Virus record (IMG/VR): IMGVR_UViG_3300037584_002976 | Coordinates: 1 to 29,670 of that record | DNA length: 29,670 bases | Direction: 5' to 3' (one strand) | Origin: a virus | In this document: positions 14,285 to 26,729 of the stretch, in pieces | Layout: each line of letters starts with the position of its first letter | Position numbering within the stretch: position 1 is the stretch's first letter | Made by a program: the position numbers and the translations under genes | The notes under the pieces: generated by a model | What the model was told of the DNA's origin: nothing | Databases searched by the model: none | What the model saw: only the letters and a program-made list of their open reading frames with translations

Positions 14285-16072
14285 TTACGGATAGCTTTTC
14301 ATTACATCGCTCTCTACTGCAAACAGTTCCGTAGCCTGAGTATTAAAGTTCGTGATAGTAAATATACAATAATGTCCTAGTAAACCATGAGATTCAGCCT
14401 CAGAACTTTTAATAAACAAAATGTATGGGTCGTTTAGCGGAAAAACAACTGTGTCAGCTGCAGTCGTACTTACTATTAATTGGTTTATTCCATTAGGTAA
14501 GTCTACATTTATTTGAGTAACCACACCACCAAAAGTAACATCGGTATATTGTGGTAGGGAGTGGTATACATAATCTCCGACACTTATAAAGCTACCTATA
14601 GAAACAAGGGGGTTTGTAGAAAAGCTTAGCGTAGTTGTTCCTTGATTTATAGCTACGTTTGAAGTCTTACCTATACCATTAGCTGACCTCATAGCATATT
14701 GACCTTTTAATGCAGGAACTTCCCCTTTTTGTCTGAGGTATGCAAACCAAGCTCCCTCCTTTTTTTCAAACCAACCATCTTCCATAAAACCATTTATCTG
14801 AATATCTGTTTCAAGATAAGACTCCCACGCATCATTAGATTCTAAGTTTAATGTTTTGTAAATTTTATTTTCTAATGGGTTTTGATTAAACACACTTGTT
14901 ATTTGTGAGTTATATTGTTCTCCATAATAATTGTTTCTTTTTTCATTTACATTGTGCTGATATAAATTACCTCCTTGAAACGTGTAAAAAAAGTTATTCA
15001 TACCTATCATATATTCAGGTATGTAAGAGTAAAATGATGGCCAACCTTTAGAGTTTTGACTATAACTAACTGTCCACTCTGTATCTACTGGTGAAGGTAT
15101 TGGTGGAACTACACTAGGTGGAGCTGGCGTTGGTATTACGGGGGTTGGTGTGCCGGGTTGAGATGGGTTACAATCTGTGTTAAATCTTAAATTATTTTCC
15201 CCTAAAAAGTATTGTCCGTTTGTAGACTCGGGATATAATGTTTGATAGCTTATTACTCCAAAATCTTGATTTACATTTAATGTAATTGTGCCAGAGTAAA
15301 ACGCATAAGTATTTCCATCTAAACCAACTGCATTTCTTTCTAATTTTGTTCCCGTATAAGATATTTGATTTTCTTTTCCATTATTTAAAAAAGCTATAGG
15401 CCACTCTGAACTTACACCAGTTATTTGATATATTCCGGTGTTAACTTCATAATTACCCCACTCTCCATTTATAACATAATATCGTACTGTAACGTTTTCA
15501 AATTCTCCTATGGTTGCAGTTCTACTAAAAACCGTTAGAGAGTTTGTAAAACTTAAACAATACTGACCAGTTCCTGGTGACGGAGTAGGAATAGGACTTG
15601 GCGATGGAGTAGGGGCTATAGCTGCATTACAAGTAGCACAATCTGCATACGTCGGTATGTTGGCAATATCTAAATAAGATATGTTAGTAGTGCTTACACC
15701 GTTTGTCCAACATATAGATTGATATGCTAAACTGGAAGGCCACGCTGTAAAACTTGAAGGCGCTCTAAATATTTGTTTTTGACTTGCTGCATTACAGTTT
15801 TCATATTCATAGTAAATATAACCTTCAATAGGGGTTGGGTCAGCATCTCCACAGTTTGTTTCGCAATTCTGTTGTACATCATAATATATTCCATATAAAG
15901 AAGTAGGTTCTATTTTTGACCCCCTTTGTAAACAATAATTCTCAATACCATTAGCTGGTACTTTTATATTTATTTTTGTACCATCACAACATGTTACTAC
16001 CCAGGTACATTGACCTTGTTCATCTCCTATTTGGTCAATAGGGCAAGAAAAACTAATAAGAGAACATGCCAT
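14285..16072 (-). CDS. Modular tail protein with Cys modules and Pro-Thr/Ser linkers (595 aa)
   Basis: The protein starts with two Cys-containing modules: residues 10-75, and residues 83-148 ending in CATC. The second matches the repeated Cys module of the 863-aa protein (IFRxxxxF...ICW...YADCATC). A (T/S)P linker at 153-166 leads to a beta-rich domain (170-300), then a second Pro-rich linker at 305-329. The last 265 residues begin GWPSFYSYIPEYM...NNFFYTFQGGNLYQHN...YYGEQYNSQ. This resembles a C-terminal domain I associate with muzzle/stabilisation proteins of related phages, here apparently on a separate polypeptide. It is probably a tail fibre or tail-tip component. It lies directly downstream of the hydroxylase/radical SAM/glycosyltransferase cassette and is a likely substrate of it. 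Confidence 0.65.
   Translation of the reverse strand: MACSLISFSCPIDQIGDEQGQCTWVVTCCDGTKINIKVPANGIENYCLQRGSKIEPTSLYGIYYDVQQNCETNCGDADPTPIEGYIYYEYENCNAASQKQIFRAPSSFTAWPSSLAYQSICWTNGVSTTNISYLDIANIPTYADCATCNAAIAPTPSPSPIPTPSPGTGQYCLSFTNSLTVFSRTATIGEFENVTVRYYVINGEWGNYEVNTGIYQITGVSSEWPIAFLNNGKENQISYTGTKLERNAVGLDGNTYAFYSGTITLNVNQDFGVISYQTLYPESTNGQYFLGENNLRFNTDCNPSQPGTPTPVIPTPAPPSVVPPIPSPVDTEWTVSYSQNSKGWPSFYSYIPEYMIGMNNFFYTFQGGNLYQHNVNEKRNNYYGEQYNSQITSVFNQNPLENKIYKTLNLESNDAWESYLETDIQINGFMEDGWFEKKEGAWFAYLRQKGEVPALKGQYAMRSANGIGKTSNVAINQGTTTLSFSTNPLVSIGSFISVGDYVYHSLPQYTDVTFGGVVTQINVDLPNGINQLIVSTTAADTVVFPLNDPYILFIKSSEAESHGLLGHYCIFTITNFNTQATELFAVESDVMKSYP
15575..15616 (-). repeat. (T/S)P-encoding linker repeat in the 595-aa tail protein
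   Basis: These bases encode residues 153-166, alternating Pro with Ala, Thr, Ser or Ile (PTPSPSPIPTPSP), seven prolines in 14 residues. A second, less regular Pro-rich linker of the same protein (residues 305-329, eleven prolines) is at 15086-15160. Confidence 0.7.
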
Positions 16073-16116: not shown

Positions 16117-16956
16117 TTATTTTATATAGGTATTTATAAAAGCATTGTAATCTTTAATCCAATTTTCAGCTGACCTTTTAGAACAATTTAAATTTTTAGC
16201 ATCTGGCCAGAAATTTATTTTATCTGCTTTTGGTCTATACATTTCTCTATAATTGTCTACACCAGGTACAAAATACTTATGCCAAATTAAATTTTCACTG
16301 GGAGCGTATATGTCAATACCACATTTGTAAAGCATTAAACTATAAAGTTCTTGTTCACATTCTCCATAATATGTATAATCATCTACAGTTATAGAGTTTA
16401 CTATATATCCTCTTCCAAACATATTACCACCTGATATGTTCATGATTTGTTCATTCTCTTTTTCAGCTAACTTTTGTTGATGAGGGCCTTTAAAATTTCC
16501 CACATAAGGAATTTCATTTGGTATATAAATAGAAGATAAGTTTCTTTTACTATAAACTTCGTAAGATTCATTAAAATGATATTCTCTTGGAAACCCACTT
16601 ATCACGCTTTCAGTTGGAGTTTTATTGAGCATGTTTATATACTCAACATCCCAACCAATTTTAAATCTACTATGACTATCAACTAATAAAAAATAATCTT
16701 CATTCTTATACAACTCTTTCATTATTATATTTCTAGCCCACCCACAACCTTCTGCATTTTCAGGTTGTACATGTTTTACTTTAATGTTTTTATTTTGAAA
16801 TTGTAATTTAAATTTTTTATTTACCACTTCTGTATCTTGTAAAAAAACTCCTGCATAAATTCTTTGCGGATTAGTAGCTCTTTTAAATAAATCATCAACT
16901 GTAATAAATATTTCTGAATCTTGATATGAAGCTATGCTTACAAATATTGATTCCAT
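16117..16956 (-). CDS. Glycosyltransferase of the Skp1-Hyp GlcNAc-transferase type (GlcNAc/GT60-like)
   Basis: The 279-aa protein begins IFVSIASYQDSE and continues with LFKRATNPQRIYAGVFLQ. Later come GCGWARN at 70-76 and a DSHSRFKIGWD motif at 93-103, whose Asp-Ser-His stands where a DXD metal/UDP-sugar motif is expected, then SGGNMFGRG at 175-183 and GECEQE at 198-203. This series matches the GlcNAc family (Pfam GlcNAc, CAZy GT60), whose founding member in Dictyostelium adds GlcNAc from UDP-GlcNAc to a hydroxyproline of Skp1 in the cytosol. There is no signal peptide or membrane helix. The start follows the radical SAM stop by one base. With a prolyl hydroxylase two genes upstream and Pro-rich tail proteins on both sides, the likely acceptor is hydroxyproline in the tail linkers. 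Glycosylation of Ser/Thr or of a surface glycan is the alternative. Confidence 0.78.
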   Translation of the reverse strand: MESIFVSIASYQDSEIFITVDDLFKRATNPQRIYAGVFLQDTEVVNKKFKLQFQNKNIKVKHVQPENAEGCGWARNIIMKELYKNEDYFLLVDSHSRFKIGWDVEYINMLNKTPTESVISGFPREYHFNESYEVYSKRNLSSIYIPNEIPYVGNFKGPHQQKLAEKENEQIMNISGGNMFGRGYIVNSITVDDYTYYGECEQELYSLMLYKCGIDIYAPSENLIWHKYFVPGVDNYREMYRPKADKINFWPDAKNLNCSKRSAENWIKDYNAFINTYIK

Positions 16957-16957
16957 A

Positions 16958-17860
16958 TTATTTTATAATTGCAGATGAGCACTCTTTACATATAGAATTA
17001 AATGCTCTTTTATTAACTAAATCTCTCTCTTTGGAAAACCATATTTCTTTTATTGTCTTATCTTTTAAGTTACCATAGCTATACTCCATATAATAATCAT
17101 TACAACATAAAAAAACATCACCTTTTGGAGATATGTGCAACCACTCTGAATCCCTTTTAACACTACAACCAATTACTTCTCCTTCAGGAATATTATTAAG
17201 CATGACATCTTTTAACAAACCTGCTCTATCTATCAAGTTCCATTGCTCATATATTTTAATTGATGGAAATAATTTTTTGGCAATATTAACTTGATTTTGC
17301 ATTTCATTTTTTTCTAAATCTGGGAAGTTTTTTAGTTTAATTATATTGGAATGTTCGTTTATACCATTTATATGTAGTAATAACAAATCGGGATTATATA
17401 AATTATTTAAAGCATAATCTATGTTTCTAATTAGTTTGTCAAACATAACCTCTTTCATTCCAGTTCTTTTTTCAAATAATCTTTTTTCATATACAGGCGC
17501 ATTGATTGCTATCATACTAACAGCAGGTTGATGTTTGTTAATTAAGTCAATCTTTTGTGGTGTGAGGGGGACTCCATTGGTTAATATACCTATTGTCAAT
17601 TTATTTTTATTTAATATTTCCAACATTGATTCAAAATGTCTGTACAACAATACCTCATTAAAATGTGAGCCATAAATAAAATGCAGGTTTGGGTTTATTA
17701 AATCTCCTTTTAAATTTACAATTTCAGATATAATTTTATCTAACAAATTTATATCCATTTGATTAATTTGATTCTTTGGATTTCCTAAAGTGCTTACTGG
17801 ACAAAACCAACAACCTGCATTACATAAACCATTTGGGTCTAACTGTATGAAGTTTATCAT
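16958..17860 (-). CDS. Radical SAM/SPASM enzyme
   Basis: The 300-aa protein carries the radical SAM cluster motif C13-x3-C17-x2-C20 (CNAGCWFC), a TNG motif at 94-96, and a C-terminal SPASM-like region: C232, then ISPKGDVFLCC with C252/C253, then GNLKDKTIKEIW, then C291-x2-C294. The last cysteines would bind an auxiliary iron-sulphur cluster. SPASM enzymes commonly modify peptides or proteins (thioether or C-C crosslinks, epimerisation, Cys/Ser oxidation), though some act on small molecules. The gene sits 2 bp after the hydroxylase and 1 bp before the glycosyltransferase, so the three are surely co-translated. I infer a third modification of the Cys/Pro-rich tail proteins, but the reaction cannot be read from sequence. 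Confidence 0.82.
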   Translation of the reverse strand: MINFIQLDPNGLCNAGCWFCPVSTLGNPKNQINQMDINLLDKIISEIVNLKGDLINPNLHFIYGSHFNEVLLYRHFESMLEILNKNKLTIGILTNGVPLTPQKIDLINKHQPAVSMIAINAPVYEKRLFEKRTGMKEVMFDKLIRNIDYALNNLYNPDLLLLHINGINEHSNIIKLKNFPDLEKNEMQNQVNIAKKLFPSIKIYEQWNLIDRAGLLKDVMLNNIPEGEVIGCSVKRDSEWLHISPKGDVFLCCNDYYMEYSYGNLKDKTIKEIWFSKERDLVNKRAFNSICKECSSAIIK

Positions 17861-17862
17861 TG

Positions 17863-19095
17863 TTAAATGTACTTATAATGAACATCAAGAGTTCTGTAAG
17901 AATTACCTTCTAAAGGTTCTTTTCTACCGTGTTCACAAATTGCAGATTCATATATTATCATGTCACCAGGTTCTGCATATATTTTATACCATTCACCGTC
18001 ATGACCCATTATATCTAAAGGCCAATCGTTTCCATATTTTTTATTTTGACATCCACATTTTAAATTTTTATCTACAATTATTATAGAGCTTACGTGATTA
18101 GATTTAAAATCTTCATAAGTAGGAGTTATTGTTTCTCCTTTTTGATATGAATTTATACCTTGTATTAATGAAGGTTTTATTGGTTGATTGTTTATCCATT
18201 CTTTATGGACTAATAGTAATTGAGTTTGTATTAATTTTTTTATCGAAGGTAAAACGTCAAGTGAAAACTTATTTGCGCTTTCTTCTTTTTCTTTCAATAA
18301 TTTGTATGTGTCATTAATTATATTCCACGTTTCAGGTGGACATTTTTGCAATGCAAAACCAAGTTCAGTGTGTTTGGAAATTTGCTCTTTAGATGTAAAA
18401 ACTTTTGGCTCTAATTTAGATACAGGTTTTTCTTCTTGTTTTATTAATTCTGATGCTTTTACAACATAAGATTTATTAATAGATTTTCCTTCTTCTTTTT
18501 GTTGTTTTTGAGAATCATAATACAATTGCGCATCCCCCGCTCCATCCCAAGGTTTTTCTCTCCACCATGATGTAACAACATATTTTTTACCTTCATCTAC
18601 TGTAACGCCTTCATGCAAATATTGTTCTTGTACTTTTCCATCTTTTAAATTATGCCACCACAAAGCTTTGCCTGTCTCAGGCTCTATAGTTTTTTGTAGT
18701 GTTGGAAAATATGTGCCCCCACCTTTGTACCCCTCGTTTAAATAAATCATTAAAGTGTGTGTTCTATTACCTGATGCTTTACAGTGCATGTCGTAAGCAG
18801 GCCCACTAAAAAAATCATTGTGTGGTTTAAAGTATTGACCTGGTTCATAGAGCTGTCCCTGTATAGCTTCTCCTTTATTTAATTCTAACCCTAAAGTTTC
18901 AGATATTCTTTTTTTTAAATTTAACAAAACAGGGTTTGTCATATCTAAATTAGAAGTGCTTGAAGTTCTGTGGTCTGTAACATCAGTTCTATCTGTACCT
19001 CCAACAACAACAGATGAACGAGTATGATTAGCGTCAATCATTTTAATTAATTCTTGACATTCCTCAGGTGTAATATAATTGTGTATTTCCTCCAT
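17863..19095 (-). CDS. Prolyl 4-hydroxylase-like 2OG-Fe(II) oxygenase, two-domain
   Basis: Residues 1-185 form a prolyl 4-hydroxylase catalytic domain: HRTSS at 42-46 (like the family's RTSSG), the iron ligands H92 and D94 in PHNDF, distal H161 and 2OG-binding K171 in HEGVTVDEGKKY, plus GGGTYFP at 125-131. A charged linker (195-235) leads to a second 2OG-oxygenase-like domain (235-410) with HVSSIIIVD, WPLDI, PGDMIIYES, EHGR and a VHY ending. There the HxD motif reads YED (327-329), so the first iron ligand seems lost while H389 and R391 remain. It may be a non-catalytic or substrate-binding domain. The enzyme would convert Pro to hydroxyproline using O2 and 2-oxoglutarate. It lies between two tail genes encoding (T/S)P linkers and opens a three-gene operon. 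Other protein substrates remain possible. Confidence 0.82.
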   Translation of the reverse strand: MEEIHNYITPEECQELIKMIDANHTRSSVVVGGTDRTDVTDHRTSSTSNLDMTNPVLLNLKKRISETLGLELNKGEAIQGQLYEPGQYFKPHNDFFSGPAYDMHCKASGNRTHTLMIYLNEGYKGGGTYFPTLQKTIEPETGKALWWHNLKDGKVQEQYLHEGVTVDEGKKYVVTSWWREKPWDGAGDAQLYYDSQKQQKEEGKSINKSYVVKASELIKQEEKPVSKLEPKVFTSKEQISKHTELGFALQKCPPETWNIINDTYKLLKEKEESANKFSLDVLPSIKKLIQTQLLLVHKEWINNQPIKPSLIQGINSYQKGETITPTYEDFKSNHVSSIIIVDKNLKCGCQNKKYGNDWPLDIMGHDGEWYKIYAEPGDMIIYESAICEHGRKEPLEGNSYRTLDVHYKYI

Positions 19096-19148: not shown

Positions 19149-21740
19149 CTATGGACATTCAGTAATTGTACATGAGCTTGTGAATGAACTACCATTCCAA
19201 TATCTATAGTAGCTACCAGTATTATAATATCCTGCTAAAGCTCCTCTTGTACAAGCGCTATCTCTATATAATAAAGTTGCAGTACAGAAATCAGTTGTAT
19301 TCATAAAGTATCCAATACTTAAACTACAAGTAAAACTTGGAACTGGCGATGGACCACTCTGGCTTATATACTCTAAGCTTACCGAATTACAAGCAGGGGT
19401 TGGAGTTGGTGTTGGAGTCGGCGTAGGCGTCGGACTCGGTGTAGCTTGACAATCTAAACATAGATTGAATGAAGCATACGCTAAATACGAACCATCAGTG
19501 CCAGTTCCTGCGTTTGAGTCAAATTCAAAACATATCGAACCACTTTTTAATACATTAGGGAATGTTGTGCCAAACGGCGCACTTACCTCTAGTATATTAG
19601 ATGGGTCATTACAATCTAAGTACAATCCATATATAGTACTCGGAGGTGTCGGTGTTGGAGTCGGTGTCGGTGTTGGAGTCGGTGTCGGTGTTGCCGGTGT
19701 ACAATTTGCACATGAGCCATAAACATTTAGTGTTGTTACACTACAATCAGTAACAGTATTTACTGCTATAATTTCCCAACATTTACTTCCATCAAATCCT
19801 GATTGACATGAACCACCAGCTCCACCTGATATCTGTAATGATACTCCAATTGCATTTGATTGATAAGTTCCAGCTACTGTTATATATGCAGTTCTGTTAG
19901 CATCAGCACAATCTCTTACTTGAATGTTAGTGGTTGGAGCAGGAGTCGGCGGTGGAGTTGGCGTTGGCGTTGCAGACGAACAGCTAAGTATAGTTAAGAC
20001 TTCTCCTAAAGAGTTTATTAAAAACTTACTGTCTGATGATTGCGGTAAATATCCTAAAGTATTAGATATACTGAAATATTCTAAACCTCCGTTGAAAACA
20101 GTTGTTTTAGAAGAGTTAGCATACAATATATCTCCAACTACAATTTGTGCAACTGTTGCTCTATTAGAAAACACAAAGTAATTTGTTCTTGCGTTACAAG
20201 CGGCTGATAATGTATACCCTCCCTGTGGTAAACCATTTATGAATAATGATGGGTTTTCACAATCATAACAAGTATTAAAATTGCTTATTGATTCAACATC
20301 TACATTTGATGTTGCTGTTGTTGATTGTGGATTAGAGTAACATATATTATTGTATTTAACAACATTAGGGAAACTTGCTGTTGTACTAAGTTTTCTAAAT
20401 ACCGCTGTTGTTGATGTTTGACATTCAGTATATGTAGCATAATCATAGGTTGGTATTGCTCCACAAGCTGAACAATCGCTATACGCAGAGTTTAGAGATA
20501 CGGTAGAATCATAAGATGTCGCCGCGTTGTCAATAACTTCCCAACAATCTGTATTTGTAAATTCAGGATTTGGTGCGCTTGCTACTCCTGTAATTTTTAT
20601 AGAATTACTATTTCCTAAAGTTGGCGCAGTTAAACCTGTTACTCTTACTTTGTAAGTTGGTGTTGTAGTAAAACATTTTCTTATTTCTACATCCTGAAAT
20701 GTTGGAGCAGGTGTCGGAGTAGGGCTAGGTGTTGACGCATTACAATCAACAATTTGAATAACTTCTCCTACATCTCTAATCAATAAAGCATAACCATTAT
20801 CAGGATTTGGATATTTTCCTGTTGTATCTGTAACCCCATACCATTTTAATTGTCCAGCCCAAACGTTACTTAACCCTGAATCTGTATAAACAATATCACC
20901 TACTACAATTGATGCTACATTTGCTCTTGTTGTATACATGCTTATTGATGTTTGTGAAGCACAAGCATTAGCTGGAGATGTTTGACCATTTCCTGCTGTA
21001 TTAGTAGAAAATATTTGTGTCCCAGGAGCTGGCGTTGGTGTTGGACTTGGAGTTGGTGTTGGACTTGGAGTTGGACTAGGTGTTGTAGCTTCACATGTAG
21101 CACAATCTCCATAAGAAAACGTAATATCATTAGTGCTCGTAGAGCCAGTTACAGAAGCAGAAGAGTAACAAAGATTGTTATCTTTAACAACAGCTGGGAA
21201 CGAGCCACCAGAGACTAATCTAAATATTTTAGTAGTCGAACCACCACATAAAGTATACTCTCTATAGTCATAAGCAATAGGCGTAGGTGTTGGTGTTGGA
21301 CTTGGAGTTGGACTAGGTGATGGACTTGGAGTTGCAGCTCCACACTGAGTACAATCAGTATAACTTACAAGACCATTTACATTTATAATAGATGTTAACC
21401 CAGTAGCTTGCGGGTTATGATAACAAATACCATTATACTCAACAGTAGGTGGAAAAGTTCCTCCTTGAACAATTCTAAAAACTTCATTTGGATTCACACC
21501 ATCACAGGCTGTGTATACTCTATAATCATATACTGGAGCTGGCGTTGGTGTTGGACTTGGAGTTCCACAATTTGGACAATTTTCTTCAGCAAATAAAACA
21601 CCAGACGCCTGTTGTCTTACAATTGTTTCGTCTGAATACCATCCATCAGGAGCAAATGTACTTAGCGCTGCATCTGTAAATAATGCAGTCGCAGTAGAAA
21701 AACTTACTGAGCTATAATAATATGTTCCTAATGCTGCCAT
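19149..21740 (-). CDS. Modular tail/fibre protein with Cys modules on seven Pro-Thr/Ser linkers (863 aa)
   Basis: Eight segments are joined by (T/S/A)P linkers at residues 60-69, 137-154, 220-239, 337-346, 591-602, 681-700 and 767-782. Three module types recur. Type A (YDYxxYTxC...IFRxxxxxSFPxVVKxNNxCY...CxxC) occurs near 71-133, 157-216, 432-494 and, diverged, 703-764. Type B (ANVASIVVGDIVYTDS...GEVIQIVDC) occurs at 260-333 and 515-587. Type C (VEIRKC...DCWEVI...CxxC) occurs at 350-426 and 606-680. The N- and C-terminal segments (1-58, 783-863) resemble each other (TATxLxxDxA). Modules end in CxxC or paired Cys. It follows the muzzle gene and is probably a tail fibre or spike that binds host glycans. 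The adjacent hydroxylase/glycosyltransferase cassette likely modifies its linkers. I see no chaperone or enzymatic domain. Confidence 0.7.
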   Translation of the reverse strand: MAALGTYYYSSVSFSTATALFTDAALSTFAPDGWYSDETIVRQQASGVLFAEENCPNCGTPSPTPTPAPVYDYRVYTACDGVNPNEVFRIVQGGTFPPTVEYNGICYHNPQATGLTSIINVNGLVSYTDCTQCGAATPSPSPSPTPSPTPTPTPIAYDYREYTLCGGSTTKIFRLVSGGSFPAVVKDNNLCYSSASVTGSTSTNDITFSYGDCATCEATTPSPTPSPTPTPSPTPTPAPGTQIFSTNTAGNGQTSPANACASQTSISMYTTRANVASIVVGDIVYTDSGLSNVWAGQLKWYGVTDTTGKYPNPDNGYALLIRDVGEVIQIVDCNASTPSPTPTPAPTFQDVEIRKCFTTTPTYKVRVTGLTAPTLGNSNSIKITGVASAPNPEFTNTDCWEVIDNAATSYDSTVSLNSAYSDCSACGAIPTYDYATYTECQTSTTAVFRKLSTTASFPNVVKYNNICYSNPQSTTATSNVDVESISNFNTCYDCENPSLFINGLPQGGYTLSAACNARTNYFVFSNRATVAQIVVGDILYANSSKTTVFNGGLEYFSISNTLGYLPQSSDSKFLINSLGEVLTILSCSSATPTPTPPPTPAPTTNIQVRDCADANRTAYITVAGTYQSNAIGVSLQISGGAGGSCQSGFDGSKCWEIIAVNTVTDCSVTTLNVYGSCANCTPATPTPTPTPTPTPTPTPPSTIYGLYLDCNDPSNILEVSAPFGTTFPNVLKSGSICFEFDSNAGTGTDGSYLAYASFNLCLDCQATPSPTPTPTPTPTPTPACNSVSLEYISQSGPSPVPSFTCSLSIGYFMNTTDFCTATLLYRDSACTRGALAGYYNTGSYYRYWNGSSFTSSCTITECP
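19395..19442 (-). repeat. TP-dipeptide linker repeat (residues 767-782)
   Basis: In-frame hexanucleotide-like repeats encode eight alternating prolines in 16 residues near the C-terminus of the 863-aa protein. Confidence 0.75.
19641..19700 (-). repeat. TP-dipeptide linker repeat (residues 681-700)
   Basis: This is one of the two longest Pro linkers, with ten prolines in 20 residues. On the plus strand it appears as alternating GGTGTT/GGAGTC/GGTGTC units. Similar shorter arrays of the same gene are at 19935-19970, 20703-20732 and 21534-21563. Confidence 0.8.
21024..21083 (-). repeat. TP/SP linker repeat (residues 220-239)
   Basis: These bases encode ten prolines alternating with Thr, Ser and Ala. 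Its DNA shares long identical runs with the linkers at 21279-21332 and 21534-21563, consistent with module duplication or recombination between linkers. Confidence 0.8.
21279..21332 (-). repeat. TP/SP linker repeat (residues 137-154)
   Basis: Nine alternating prolines in 18 residues join the first two type A Cys modules of the 863-aa protein. Confidence 0.78.
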
Positions 21741-21751
21741 TTATAATTTTA

Positions 21752-21759
21752 CAAAGTTA
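21752..21759 (-). promoter_or_regulatory. -7 element TAACTTTG upstream of the 863-aa gene
   Basis: The 24-bp gap between the muzzle and 863-aa genes holds TAACTTTGTAA on the minus strand, ending 11 bp before the ATG. It matches TAnnTTTG exactly. No clear -33 box is seen. Confidence 0.45.
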
Positions 21760-21764
21760 ACCAT

Positions 21765-24700
21765 TTATCCTGAACATCTTGAATCCCCACATCCTGATAC
21801 TTGAACAATTACTTCTCCGTTTTGTCCCGTAGTTGCACTATCATATAAAGACGCACATCTTGTTATTGAACCAAATTGATATTGTACCTCATCTCCCACA
21901 ACGATACCTAATGTTTGATTTGCTTTTAAATATACTGCCTGTAAACTTACACAATCTATACCTAAGAAGTAATCATATACCGGGACTGGCGTAGGCGTAG
22001 GCGTAGGCGTAGGCGTAGGCGTTGGAGCTGGTGTAAATGTACAGCTACAACATGCGTCAGCTATATTTATCGTTGAATAACAAAGCTGCTGACCTAAAGA
22101 ATTTCTTAAGTCATATATTAAATACAACTTATTACCATTGCCAGGTAAACCAAATTGAGCGCTAAATAAATTCGGAGCTCCGCTAGTATTTATTGGGGTT
22201 GCTTGTACTGATGCTGCTAATAAAATACTAATATCAGTTGAGTTGTTTTGATATAACGCATCAGTTCTTAAATATCTAAATTCATTTTCAGTAGCGTCAA
22301 ACTGGAAATTATCAAAATTAATTTTATTACTTCTCATTGTAATAACCGCTCCATCAGGTGGTATAACACCTGAAGCTTGAGGGCCTTCTAGTTCTCTGTA
22401 TTGAGAAACTATTGGGTCGCTTGGACTTGCTAAAAATGTAACTAAATCTGATTGTGTCGGAGAGGTTACAGTTGAATCTGCCCAGCTAAATTCAGTATGT
22501 GTAAATTGACCTGCGTTAGCATTTGTGCTAAGAGTAATACTGTATACGCTAAACAACTCTTCTTCAGGACATTTAACTGTCACTTGAATTGTGTCGTTTA
22601 CAATTGAATCAGATGAAATAATCATAACGACTTCAGTTGGCGTTGGGTTAGGTTTTGGAAATTTAAGTGTTCCACTTTGATAAACAATACCCGATGAATA
22701 TGTAACACCATCATAAATAGCTTGAACCACGTATCCAGTACCTGTAACCTGTCCCTCTGTTTCAATATCAACACCTGCTTCTGAAACTACTTGTTGTTCA
22801 GTTCCCTCAGTTACAATTAAATCTGTATTTTCAAATGGAATAACATAATCAATTTCAACAAAATATGTTTTTGATGGAGGCCCTATTGTCTCTCCTAGTT
22901 CAACACAATAAACAAATTCTTGTCCTGCAACAATAGTAATATTCTTAGTAACACCACAAGCAGTACATAGTTGAGTTTCCGGTTTGATAATTGTATTTGT
23001 CGTAAAAACATACTCTTGCATGTATGGGTCATAACCACCTAGTTTTTGTGTAGATGATGCTTCTGCAAACAAATCTCTAAACCAACTTCTCATACCTTCA
23101 TTAGATACTACAGTTAGTATTTCGTTTTGCGCAGAGCTACCTGTTAACTTTATTATAACGTTTCTTTTTGCATCAGAGAAATATTTATTTTCTCCAAATG
23201 TTGCAAAACTTTCTGGGTGATTACTAATTCCAAACTCTTCTACTCTTGCTATTTGTGTGCCTAATACTTCAGGAACAGATGTAACTACACCACCTCCAGT
23301 AGAATCTGATAATAAGTTTTTACCAGCAAGCACATAAGATATCTTGTCTTCTTGTAATACTAAGACATCTGTTTTTCTTGCAAATAATATTTCAACATCT
23401 CCATAAGTTTCTTCTAATGGTTTAAAGTTTACTAAACCTAAATTAAATTCATTTAATCTGTTTACATTTGATTCATCATTAAAGACACCACTGTATGTAA
23501 TGTCAGCAAACCTGTGAGCTGCTTTAAATTCTTCGTTAGATGTTGTAAAAATTCTGTTTCCTAAATTAAAAGATTTACCTTTTATAGAATCTCTAATCCT
23601 ATAGCTTTCAACACCGTTTCCAAAACTATAACAATTTGTAAACCCAGGGTTTACAATTGCTGATTGAAAAGAAGTTTGGTTTTGTACATTTCCTAAATGT
23701 AATCCATTACTAATATCAAATGACTGACTGTTTTCATACCAAGCGTCAGGCAAAGCATCTTGAGGTTCTGTTTCAAAAACATAAGTTGCACCATCACCTC
23801 TATATACCGTAAATGACACTTCAAGCATAGATTCTTCATTTTCAGAGCTACCTGCAGAGTACGAACCTGATACTAAGAGAAAAATTAAATTGTTTCCATT
23901 TGCATCTTGAGTACTAGTATCTTCGTAAAGTCTATAATAAAAGTTATCATTAAAATCTAATATTGCAGGTGTACCTCCTCCAAATAAATTATTTCCTCTC
24001 AAATCAGAATCTTGTTTACAAGCCTCATGTATAATTTCATTAGCAGCAACCCCTAAAGGAGCAGCTCCATTGTTAACTTGAGGTGAGATAAAAGTGTTTT
24101 CTATTGTTTGTACTTGACCTGGGTTTTTTACACCGCTATCTAATATACTAGCAACGTTATCACCAATAAACCAATTAGCCATGTTGGTGTAATTAGTTGA
24201 TGCAGTAAGCGTTTTTTCTAGCGTATAATTTCGTTTTCCATCTGCTCCTGTTCCAGTTCCATTTCTTCTCATCTCAACCCTCATAACTATCCTACTTCCA
24301 ACTGGTACATCATACACATTATAAGTAGGAGTTAGTGGAGATGGTCTATTTACAGTTGTAAAAAAAGGAAAAGCTACAGTAGGTATCTCTCCATCGGTTG
24401 TACAGGTTTTTTTCACGGGGTCAACAGCAATAACAGCATTAGGGTCTTGTATAGAAGAGAAATTAGATGCGTTTATTTTCATGTATACCCCACCTATTAC
24501 ATCTACTTGAGTACCAGCCGCATCAAAAATAGATATAAACCCGCTTGACTGTGCTTCTTTTTCTAACACTGTGGCTCTTATACATCTTGATGTTGGCCCA
24601 GTATTGTCAGCTTTTACAATTAAATTGTCACCTGCTTCAACTTTAGCAGCATTTTCACCATCTAATAAAAAGTAACTTGAACTAGATACTGTATCTCTAT

Positions 24701-26729
24701 ATGCAACATTACTATAGATTGTTTCATAAGTTTCTTTAGTAGGTTTTATAACAAATTTATATTTTGTTGCCCATGCCGGCGCTTTCATTGACGCAGGTAT
24801 ATCTACTTGTATAGAATTTCTATCAATAGAATTACTACATGGAATATTAATTGACCCTCCATCTTCTGCACTACTTACTAGAGCTGTTGATGCTCGGTTG
24901 TAATCATCCATATAAACAATACCTACCTCATAACCTCTATTACTGTGTAAACTTTCAGCGTTTGAGCTATCTCTAAAAGAAGCAGTTTCATTTACTATGC
25001 CCCAGTAAGCGTAACCAGAGTTTCCTGCTCCAGAGTAAAATGCCGCTAAGTTTTGTATTTGTAAAACATTTGAGGAAGTACTTGCTGTAGCTACTAAAGC
25101 TTGACCAGCGCTTGGTGAACTTGGTGTTGCAGAAGTTATTCCTGTCTGCAACAAACTGTATGTAGAATCTAAATTTTCTGGTACAGTTCTGTTAAAGACA
25201 TCTGTTAAAGTATTACCAAGTCCAGCTTGAGCGTTTGCAACGGTTTGTATTGTTCCATTTACACCATCTGTTCCTATTTTTTCTTGAAAATCTGTACTTG
25301 TAACAAAATCAAATACATTCGCATAATCATCTATTAAAGTGTAAGACCATGTAAGCTCAAATACAGCTGTAGTTGGTGTAGGGTCTATAGATGGAGGGAT
25401 TTTTTCAAACTCAAAAAATGTTATGCCAAAATTTAAAGTTAATCTTGTTCCTTTTTTTAATTTAGATTCACCGGTCATTAAAGGACTTAAGTCAACATAT
25501 AATACTGAATCTGAAATAGATTTACTTGTAGATGTAGGAGTATATGTAAATTGTCCAGTGTCTGCATACGCTGGTGTATCAATAAGCGATATTGGCTCTG
25601 ACTTAAGGCTTGCAGTAAAGTTTAAATCTATACTAGCTCCATTGCTGTCTTTTAAATCATAACCTTCCATATAGTTACCATACATCAACCTATTACCCAT
25701 TAATGTTTGTGCCTTAGCTAATTGAGGAACATTGTCATAAAGTCTTAGAATTTCTGAGTCAGGTAATACAGTAAATATTTCTCTATTAGTAAAATTATAT
25801 TCTGTGTTTGTGTTGTTTATACTTCCTAAATCTCTTTTTTTATTTAAAGTTTTTATAACTTTTATAGACGTGCTATCTGCTTCTTTAAACAATAATTGAA
25901 CATCTGTTACACTGCTACTTCCAGTATTAAATGTAATTTGTACAGCATTGTTTTGATTTACCATTCCTTCATTTAAATAACTATTTGTAGTAAAATCAAA
26001 ATTACCAGGCGTAAATGCTGGCTCACTAAACTGAGAGATAGCTGAAAATTCATTATTAGCATACTTATATCTATAAGCAAAACATAAAAACTTATCTTCT
26101 AAATACGCATCAGTGATACTTGAAACAAAATATGGTAGTACTGCTGGAGCGCTTGTAGGAGGTTTTTTAATTACTAAAATATCATCTTGATTAAATAAAT
26201 CAAGGTTAACACCAAGTAATGGGTCTCCGTAGTTTTGATTTATATTAATTACTCTAGGAGGATTAGTGTTGTCTGTAAAAAATAATAAATCATCTATTTT
26301 ATCTACTCCTGTAATTAAAAAATTTGGATTAAAGTTTAATGTAGTGTTTACGCCATTGCCGTCATTAACACTAATTACATGATATATTAGCTGACCAGTT
26401 TCAACATCAAATGAAATAATTAAATCTAACTTACCCGTTGCTCCTTGAGTAAAAGCCGGGTCATGAACAAACCAATATAAAGCTAAATTAGCCCCGTCTT
26501 CAAATGCACCTATACATCTAGCCTGTGAACTTAATTTAGTTCCATCAACATATTGAAGTTCTGTTAGAGGTAAATTTCCTTTTGAATTTTCAACAGCACC
26601 AATCTCAGAATCTTCAGTAGAACCAAGTCTTACATTTACAGCATTTATATACTCTCCATTTGGGACAAGCCTTTCATCAAGGCTTTTATTCATACGGCCC
26701 GCTACAAAATTTCTCTGAATGTTTGCCAT
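21765..26729 (-). CDS. Tail muzzle / stabilisation protein (P22 gp10-like, crAss-type) with C-terminal TP linker and Cys domain (1654 aa)
   Basis: The N-terminus (RNFVAGRMNKSLDERLVPNG, then YINAVNVRLGSTEDSEIGAV at 27-46) is the hallmark of the beta-propeller-rich muzzle/stabilisation proteins that follow the ring proteins in crAss-like and related marine podovirus genomes (P22 gp10 role: closing the tail tube). Further motifs of this type include FTDNTNPPRVININ and NRLMYGNYMEGYDL. It is unusually long. The C-terminus bears ACCSC, then a TP linker at 1566-1583 (nine prolines), then a 71-residue Cys domain (YDYFLGIDC...CGDSRCSG) that resembles the Cys modules of the next gene. These additions look like a fused decoration or fibre-docking unit. 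It starts one base after the ring-protein gene stop. Confidence 0.75.
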   Translation of the reverse strand: MANIQRNFVAGRMNKSLDERLVPNGEYINAVNVRLGSTEDSEIGAVENSKGNLPLTELQYVDGTKLSSQARCIGAFEDGANLALYWFVHDPAFTQGATGKLDLIISFDVETGQLIYHVISVNDGNGVNTTLNFNPNFLITGVDKIDDLLFFTDNTNPPRVININQNYGDPLLGVNLDLFNQDDILVIKKPPTSAPAVLPYFVSSITDAYLEDKFLCFAYRYKYANNEFSAISQFSEPAFTPGNFDFTTNSYLNEGMVNQNNAVQITFNTGSSSVTDVQLLFKEADSTSIKVIKTLNKKRDLGSINNTNTEYNFTNREIFTVLPDSEILRLYDNVPQLAKAQTLMGNRLMYGNYMEGYDLKDSNGASIDLNFTASLKSEPISLIDTPAYADTGQFTYTPTSTSKSISDSVLYVDLSPLMTGESKLKKGTRLTLNFGITFFEFEKIPPSIDPTPTTAVFELTWSYTLIDDYANVFDFVTSTDFQEKIGTDGVNGTIQTVANAQAGLGNTLTDVFNRTVPENLDSTYSLLQTGITSATPSSPSAGQALVATASTSSNVLQIQNLAAFYSGAGNSGYAYWGIVNETASFRDSSNAESLHSNRGYEVGIVYMDDYNRASTALVSSAEDGGSINIPCSNSIDRNSIQVDIPASMKAPAWATKYKFVIKPTKETYETIYSNVAYRDTVSSSSYFLLDGENAAKVEAGDNLIVKADNTGPTSRCIRATVLEKEAQSSGFISIFDAAGTQVDVIGGVYMKINASNFSSIQDPNAVIAVDPVKKTCTTDGEIPTVAFPFFTTVNRPSPLTPTYNVYDVPVGSRIVMRVEMRRNGTGTGADGKRNYTLEKTLTASTNYTNMANWFIGDNVASILDSGVKNPGQVQTIENTFISPQVNNGAAPLGVAANEIIHEACKQDSDLRGNNLFGGGTPAILDFNDNFYYRLYEDTSTQDANGNNLIFLLVSGSYSAGSSENEESMLEVSFTVYRGDGATYVFETEPQDALPDAWYENSQSFDISNGLHLGNVQNQTSFQSAIVNPGFTNCYSFGNGVESYRIRDSIKGKSFNLGNRIFTTSNEEFKAAHRFADITYSGVFNDESNVNRLNEFNLGLVNFKPLEETYGDVEILFARKTDVLVLQEDKISYVLAGKNLLSDSTGGGVVTSVPEVLGTQIARVEEFGISNHPESFATFGENKYFSDAKRNVIIKLTGSSAQNEILTVVSNEGMRSWFRDLFAEASSTQKLGGYDPYMQEYVFTTNTIIKPETQLCTACGVTKNITIVAGQEFVYCVELGETIGPPSKTYFVEIDYVIPFENTDLIVTEGTEQQVVSEAGVDIETEGQVTGTGYVVQAIYDGVTYSSGIVYQSGTLKFPKPNPTPTEVVMIISSDSIVNDTIQVTVKCPEEELFSVYSITLSTNANAGQFTHTEFSWADSTVTSPTQSDLVTFLASPSDPIVSQYRELEGPQASGVIPPDGAVITMRSNKINFDNFQFDATENEFRYLRTDALYQNNSTDISILLAASVQATPINTSGAPNLFSAQFGLPGNGNKLYLIYDLRNSLGQQLCYSTINIADACCSCTFTPAPTPTPTPTPTPTPVPVYDYFLGIDCVSLQAVYLKANQTLGIVVGDEVQYQFGSITRCASLYDSATTGQNGEVIVQVSGCGDSRCSG
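21981..22034 (-). repeat. TP linker repeat in the muzzle protein C-terminus
   Basis: On the plus strand five consecutive near-identical units of GTAGGC (21989-22020 region) encode alternating Thr-Pro, flanked by APTP and VPV. The perfect 6-bp periodicity means slippage would change linker length by whole dipeptides without a frameshift. Confidence 0.8.

Follow-up and report, generated by a model that had tools for sequence, protein, structure and literature searches.

The 29.7-kb virus record analysed here (IMGVR_UViG_3300037584_002976; 29,670 nucleotides, hereafter the window) derives from a marine crAss-like phage that encodes a prolyl 4-hydroxylase (P4H) and a GT60-type glycosyltransferase among the genes for three tail-tip proteins with proline-rich linkers. 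This phage probably hydroxylates the linkers of its own tail-tip proteins and O-glycosylates them via hydroxyproline (Hyp). The basis for this reading is sequence, namely the modules and linkers of the proteins, the enzyme families and their catalytic residues, the co-occurrence of enzymes and linkers, the swapping of sugar genes among relatives, and the pairing or fusion of P4H and GT60 in bacteria.

In the proposed mechanism, the tail-tip proteins would form flexible appendages in which compact beta modules with four cysteines are carried on extended (T/S/A)P linkers, and the genes between the three proteins would constitute a linker-modification cassette. The P4H would hydroxylate prolines of these X-Pro (XP) linkers, whereupon the neighbouring glycosyltransferase would add a sugar to the Hyp. 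In the window this sugar would be N-acetylglucosamine (GlcNAc), added by the GT60 enzyme, and in relatives possibly arabinose, fucose or others, depending on the transferase family. The result might be stiff, protease-resistant, sugar-coated stalks that resemble the Skp1 glycan or the Hyp-rich glycoproteins of plants. Such a coat might serve stiffness, host adsorption or protection.

Enzymes and linkers of the window

The late genes occupy the minus strand, as do all window features for which coordinates are given below. Their order is two ring-type genes, the muzzle gene, the gene for an 863-amino-acid (863-aa) protein, a 2-oxoglutarate (2OG)-Fe(II) oxygenase, a radical SAM (rSAM)/SPASM enzyme, GT60, a 595-aa protein, and three further genes, such that P4H, rSAM and GT60 sit directly between genes for linker proteins. 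The oxygenase (17863..19095) is a P4H-type protein with two 2OG-Fe(II) oxygenase domains (PF13640, E 7e-13; P4Hs in the PDB, E 1e-31 to 7e-17). Its first domain is intact, and the HxD...H iron ligands and 2OG lysine (H92, D94, H161 and K171) are invariant in 75/75 sequences. Domain and catalytic residues assign the protein to the P4Hs by family, with hydroxylation of peptidyl proline as the predicted reaction. A few relatives have the first oxygenase domain only. The nearest solved relatives of domain 1 include a Bacillus P4H and Chlamydomonas P4H-1, and we know of no GT60 linked to the Bacillus enzyme. The Bacillus P4H (PDB 3itq and 5hv0), which is closest in sequence to domain 1 at E about 2e-31, is a single-domain protein, whereas the window P4H has two domains.

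The rSAM/SPASM gene follows (16958..17860; PF04055 and PF13186). All of its matches to NCBIfam models fell below their cut-offs, with a weak likeness to peptide maturases. The GT60-type GlcNAc-transferase (16117..16956) matches PF11397 at E 9.5e-43, with 147 bits against a cut-off of 21. At the gene level, the window thus resembles a Hyp O-glycosylation system in that a P4H and a Hyp-transferase-type enzyme are co-encoded with each other and with XP-repeat proteins.

A precedent for this enzyme pair is the Skp1 pathway of Dictyostelium and Toxoplasma, which is cytoplasmic, as here, and in which the P4H PhyA is paired with the GT60 GlcNAc-transferase Gnt1. Gnt1 acts on the hydroxylated proline of Skp1 in a P4H-dependent manner, and other transferases add further sugars including fucose (PMC6939170). 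However, the Skp1 pathway modifies a single proline of one regulatory protein, whereas the putative targets in the phage are prolines of XP dipeptides, numbering in the dozens, in virion proteins that are encoded beside the enzymes. A second parallel is provided by plant and algal Hyp-rich glycoproteins (extensins and arabinogalactan proteins), which combine extended Pro-rich repeats with P4H and Hyp glycosyltransferases such as HPAT, an enzyme that glycosylates the Hyp of extensins (PMC5371791). Some phage relatives encode an HPAT-like protein, but the plant HPAT (GT95) belongs to the secretory pathway, the phage lacks Ser-Pro4 repeats, and the similarity to HPAT is weak. Mycobacteriophages have glycosylated virions and are similar to the phage described here in that virion proteins are glycosylated by phage-encoded enzymes, although we know of no P4H or Hyp step in those phages. 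To our knowledge, Hyp O-glycosylation is known only from eukaryotes, apart from P4Hs of bacteria that act on collagen-like proteins. A search of open-licence PMC papers found nothing on Hyp in phages or on P4H with virion proteins.

To the putative substrates, the 863-aa protein contributes seven long (T/S/A)P linkers, the muzzle one, and the 595-aa protein three shorter ones. Numbered from its N terminus, the linkers of the 863-aa protein are linker 1 (TPSPTPTPAP; 21534..21563), linker 2 (21279..21332), linker 3 (21024..21083), linker 4 (20700..20732), linker 5 (19932..19970), linker 6 (eight TP dipeptides; 19644..19691), and linker 7 (19392..19442). The muzzle carries a (T/A)P linker at residues 1566-1583 (21981..22034). 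The 595-aa protein has the linker APTPSPSPIPTPSP (15575..15616) and two short linkers upstream of its muzzle C-terminal domain (15089..15136). The residue preceding proline is T in 46, S in 14, and A in 7 cases (n=73). Most linkers are not simple DNA microsatellites because their dipeptides mix synonymous codons, which makes a microsatellite origin for all of them unlikely; the muzzle linker has an ACGCCT run.

Hydroxylase, linkers and cysteines among relatives

The stretch between the middle protein (the 863-aa protein in the window) and the muzzle C-terminal domain was annotated in 139 loci, which form 75 clusters at 95% identity. Two architectures were found. The first combines XP linkers with a P4H placed next after the middle protein and, behind it, sugar genes. 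The second lacks XP linkers in both the muzzle and the middle protein, has the C-terminal domain as a protein of its own (about 265 aa), and contains no intervening enzyme. In a linker-blind sample, for which loci were chosen by the muzzle C-terminal domain alone, P4H and linkers occurred together in 26 cases and were both absent in 36, while one case had three XP dipeptides without P4H and none had P4H without a linker (nominal Fisher p 8e-17, relatedness ignored). The same four classes number 38, 36, 1 and 0 among all dereplicated clusters. Linkers are present at 130 of the 134 P4H loci, and the exceptions are three partial contigs and one distant human-gut fragment. A testable rule for this phage group is that P4H predicts XP linkers.

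Cysteines do not behave in this way. Cys density in the middle protein is 3.7 per 100 aa in phages with the cassette and P4H versus 3.5 in those without, and in some P4H-bearing phages (L115, L090 and L129) the middle protein is rich in linkers yet poor in Cys. The enzymes therefore track the Pro linkers and not the cysteines. This result bears on a suggestion of the original prediction, which was made from the window sequence alone, that the rSAM enzyme might modify the paired cysteines. Two observations favour the Cys pairs as the modified feature, be it through an rSAM thioether or other change, metal binding, or late oxidation. Among 138 distinct copies of the recurrent A module (described below), 128 have all four Cys, the exceptions being 10 copies truncated at an end. 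The rSAM/SPASM gene is also adjacent in the window. Nevertheless, rSAM/SPASM stands between P4H and GT60 in only four clusters (L007, which is the window type, L175, L115 and L129) of the 38 that bear a cassette, and two of these four are Cys-poor (5-7 Cys). Together with the equal Cys densities, this makes the Cys pairs very improbable as the modified feature, above all by rSAM chemistry.

The original prediction had further regarded Cys-rich repeats as odd for proteins that fold in a reducing cytoplasm. Cysteines are not odd in a crAss-like tail, however, as the cryo-electron microscopy study of phi-crAss001 reports disulfides for the tail barrel, the hubs, and the portal-vertex protein (PMC10172136). 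It is possible that the A-module cysteines are plain structure, as disulfides or a metal site.

Exchange of the sugar genes and competing explanations

Modification genes directly follow P4H in 38/38 P4H-bearing clusters, whereas none of the clusters without P4H has any inserted enzyme. The identity of these genes varies. GT60 is found in 17 of the 38, joined to a GT32-type domain in six of these (471 aa); 12 clusters have a GT32-type protein by itself, eight an HPAT-like protein, and one an O-fucosyltransferase (O-FucT) with a carbamoyltransferase. Several cassettes also include nucleoside diphosphate (NDP)-sugar dehydratases or epimerases along with O-FucT. Carbamoyltransferases (PF16861/PF02543) are present in two cassettes (L067:6065-7501 and L090:6829-8373), where they perhaps carbamoylate a glycan. 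The window, with rSAM and GT60, and locus L137, with the 471-aa GT60-GT32 protein, differ in their cassettes although their muzzle C-terminal domains are 98% identical. This comparison shows that the sugar genes are exchanged quickly while P4H and linkers are retained, and by such swaps among close relatives a phage could alter the glycan coat of its tail tip.

A scan of bacterial genomes for GT60 yielded 80 loci, of which four, a minority, pair or fuse P4H with GT60. Two Bacteroidota contigs (L316:6831-12715 and L354:3-5809) encode a P4H that is homologous over its full length, both domains included (E about 1e-83), and its gene overlaps that for a 1.5-kaa protein combining O-FucT with two GT60 domains. 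In two proteobacterial contigs, GT60 and P4H domains are joined in one polypeptide, including a GT60x3-AhpC-P4H fusion (L362:8192-13165). The fusion of GT60 with P4H is a direct functional link. In the genome with this fusion, a further protein (L485:2284-7824; 1,846 aa) contains 61 Cys and a run of TP, SP and AP that is 90 residues long. Separately, another phage group (L396-L475; L215, L249 and L268), with contigs of up to 297 kb, carries a GT60 of about 400 aa near Cys-rich XP-linker proteins. We assign about even chances to a fuller proposal, namely that the phage possesses a complete and swappable Hyp O-glycosylation system devoted to the fibres of its tail tip, in which the hydroxylase stays fixed while sugar cassettes can be exchanged to switch the glycan coat, and which was probably drawn from a Bacteroidota P4H-GT60 pathway.

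Several observations weigh against hydroxylation and glycosylation of the linkers. The second oxygenase domain of the window P4H looks dead, since H and R are retained but TYE (T326-Y-E328) stands at the HxD site; position 326 is H in 74/75 others, and TYE is shared only with a 98% identical relative (L002). The HPAT assignment is weak, with PF23452 matched by 4/7 members (best E 1.3e-5) and the member shown scoring 19.6 bits, under the cut-off of 23.9. The two Bacteroidota genomes lack an exact (XP)5 stretch. Two wider generalizations were rejected as well. XP linkers do not imply P4H in phages generally, as 80 phage loci selected solely for (TP)5 gave P4H in two and GT60 in five. Likewise, P4H does not always accompany GT60, because in the other phage group 42/80 loci have GT60 close to Cys-rich proteins with XP linkers but no P4H. 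Finally, the tree of the muzzle C-terminal domain implies two changes of P4H and at least three of the linker label, and well-supported branches force one change only. With so few changes, the co-occurrence represents few independent events, one or two within these phages.

The loci with GT60 near linker proteins but without P4H, such as L215, L249 and L268, would fit the main competing explanation, a mucin-like scheme in which the transferases act on Thr or Ser of TP/SP linkers, whereas hydroxylation serves just to stiffen these linkers or has a different target. The prevalence of T before P among the linker dipeptides favours this scheme too. Moreover, the GT60 family includes a Trypanosoma cruzi enzyme that is presumably Thr-directed, and its membership means that Thr could be the acceptor. 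This enzyme is a polypeptide GlcNAc-transferase (PMC6939170). Even so, the crAss-like group keeps P4H constant while the transferase varies, with GT60 replaced in eight clusters by an HPAT-like protein, whose family takes its name from Hyp arabinosylation, and the bacterial GT60-P4H fusions argue for sequential action. We consider Thr/Ser acceptors doubtful, and position, co-occurrence and family knowledge point to Hyp as the sugar acceptor.

The scarcity of changes on the tree would also be expected if the cassette acted elsewhere, whether on the capsid, on a surface polysaccharide of the host or on one of its proteins, and linkers were co-inherited by hitch-hiking in one clade. The NDP-sugar enzymes of the cassettes also serve in polysaccharide pathways. 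However, the cassette always lies between linker genes, complete loci never show P4H without linkers, and P4H is retained through repeated cassette swaps. A target elsewhere is thus quite unlikely, and the same combination of position, co-occurrence and family knowledge suggests that the linkers are the substrate.

Tail-tip layout and module shuffling

The muzzle protein (1654 aa; 21765..26729) matches phrog_14478, a virion structural protein, at E 7e-218, and the ring-type genes match phrog_14543 and phrog_13977 in PHROG. Residues 332-595 (264 aa) of the 595-aa protein (14285..16072) form a crAss muzzle C-terminal domain (14288..15079; PF25729, E 5e-18). Both PF25729 and the ring-muzzle gene order, which is as in Cellulophaga phage phi13:2, support the crAss-like muzzle assignment. 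A sequence search of the PDB gave no hit for the window muzzle, not even to the solved phi-crAss001 muzzle, from which its divergence may be too large. The tails of phi13:2 (Pachyviridae) and phi-crAss001 share the ring-type genes, muzzle, and muzzle C-terminal domain with the window, but in this stretch phi13:2 lacks the modular linker protein, as well as any XP linkers, P4H or transferase. Because this cultured relative encodes the C-terminal domain in a structural gene of its own (241 aa) immediately after the muzzle gene, the window layout suggests that a modular protein and an enzyme cassette were inserted into a tail tip made of two genes. The host is likely to be flavobacterial, given that the hosts of related phages on public record are Cellulophaga, Flavobacterium, Maribacter and Tenacibaculum. 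Near 6.6 kb, both GC skew and coding strand switch, with early-type genes on the plus strand and late genes on the minus strand.

The open reading frames (ORFs) lie where the original prediction had placed them. The 863-aa protein (19149..21740) has the layout N~A~A~B~C-A-B~C~A~Z, where ~ denotes a (T/S/A)P linker, and a Pfam search assigned no family to the protein or its modules. Modules were compared by pairwise alignment scored against shuffled modules. Type A is represented by A1 (21339..21530; Cys 79, 106, 130 and 133), A2 (21090..21272), A3 (20256..20447) and A4 (19446..19637), and by A5 on the 595-aa protein (15626..15823; z 7-18 versus A1-A4). Pairwise z values for this type are 5-26, and the best Smith-Waterman scores are 133-147 versus shuffled maxima of 39-45. 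Type B has two copies, B1 (20739..21023; two Cys) and B2 (19977..20240), at z 19, and type C also has two, C1 (20460..20699) and C2 (19698..19931), at z 7.7. A distant likeness was detected between A1 and C1 (z 8.5) and between the terminal modules N (residues 1-59; 21564..21740), which ends in CxxC and is the only part retained in linker-less relatives, and Z (19152..19391) at z 7.

The original prediction of shared modules on three adjacent proteins, each ending in CxxC or paired Cys and separated by linkers, was therefore borne out in large part, with small corrections. It holds for the array of the 863-aa protein, with its seven long linkers, and for the A module of the 595-aa protein. However, the other N-terminal parts of the latter (H and X) are unique to it, and the muzzle tail module M (residues 1584-1652; 21774..21980; four Cys) shows no z above 4 against A, B or C and is a singleton in the window; relatives have B or A modules in its place. 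CxxC terminates every A copy and both C copies, whereas B copies have one Cys near either end, and one A module directly follows C with no linker between.

Among the 75 clusters, module arrays vary in number and order, and the carrier of A and B modules may be the muzzle, the middle protein, or the homologue of the 595-aa protein. In four clusters (L171, L189, L191 and L193), a single ORF of 2,053-2,246 aa encodes muzzle and middle protein together. On the strength of these differences in number, order and host polypeptide, module shuffling is real, in line with the exchange between polypeptides that had been proposed. At one locus (L110:9329-9988), an extra 219-aa ORF that scores as an N module lies behind a muzzle ORF in which an N module is scored as well, a possible recent split or duplication. 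Tandem domain repeats also evolve in the BACON tail proteins of crAssphage, although these consist of other domains, and the portion of that report available to us mentions no linker or modification cassette (PMC6949934).

The A module is predicted to be a compact beta domain of five strands and a C-terminal helix (AlphaFold mean pLDDT 93.9 with 40 modules), and its cysteines fall behind strand 1, within strand 4 and, as the CxxC, in the helix. Most linkers have pLDDT below 50 in the model of the 863-aa protein (mean pLDDT 61), and these models would fit the bead-on-string fibre that had been envisaged. Comparison with known structures assigned no fold to the module, and none is ruled out. Foldseek found no match for the whole 863-aa model at E <= 0.001, and the A module had no significant counterpart in the PDB (best E 2.0; VIA-align best Z 3.9, to PriA and RbpA-type chains) and only a weak likeness to unnamed viral proteins in BFVD (best E 0.12, probability 0.99).

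If the proposed modification of the linkers is correct, it would draw attention to P4H-GT60 pathways of Bacteroidota and Proteobacteria that are as yet unexplored. For the crAss-like phages themselves, it would mean that some possess a dedicated virion modification system, which would place switchable glycans at the end of the particle that contacts the host.

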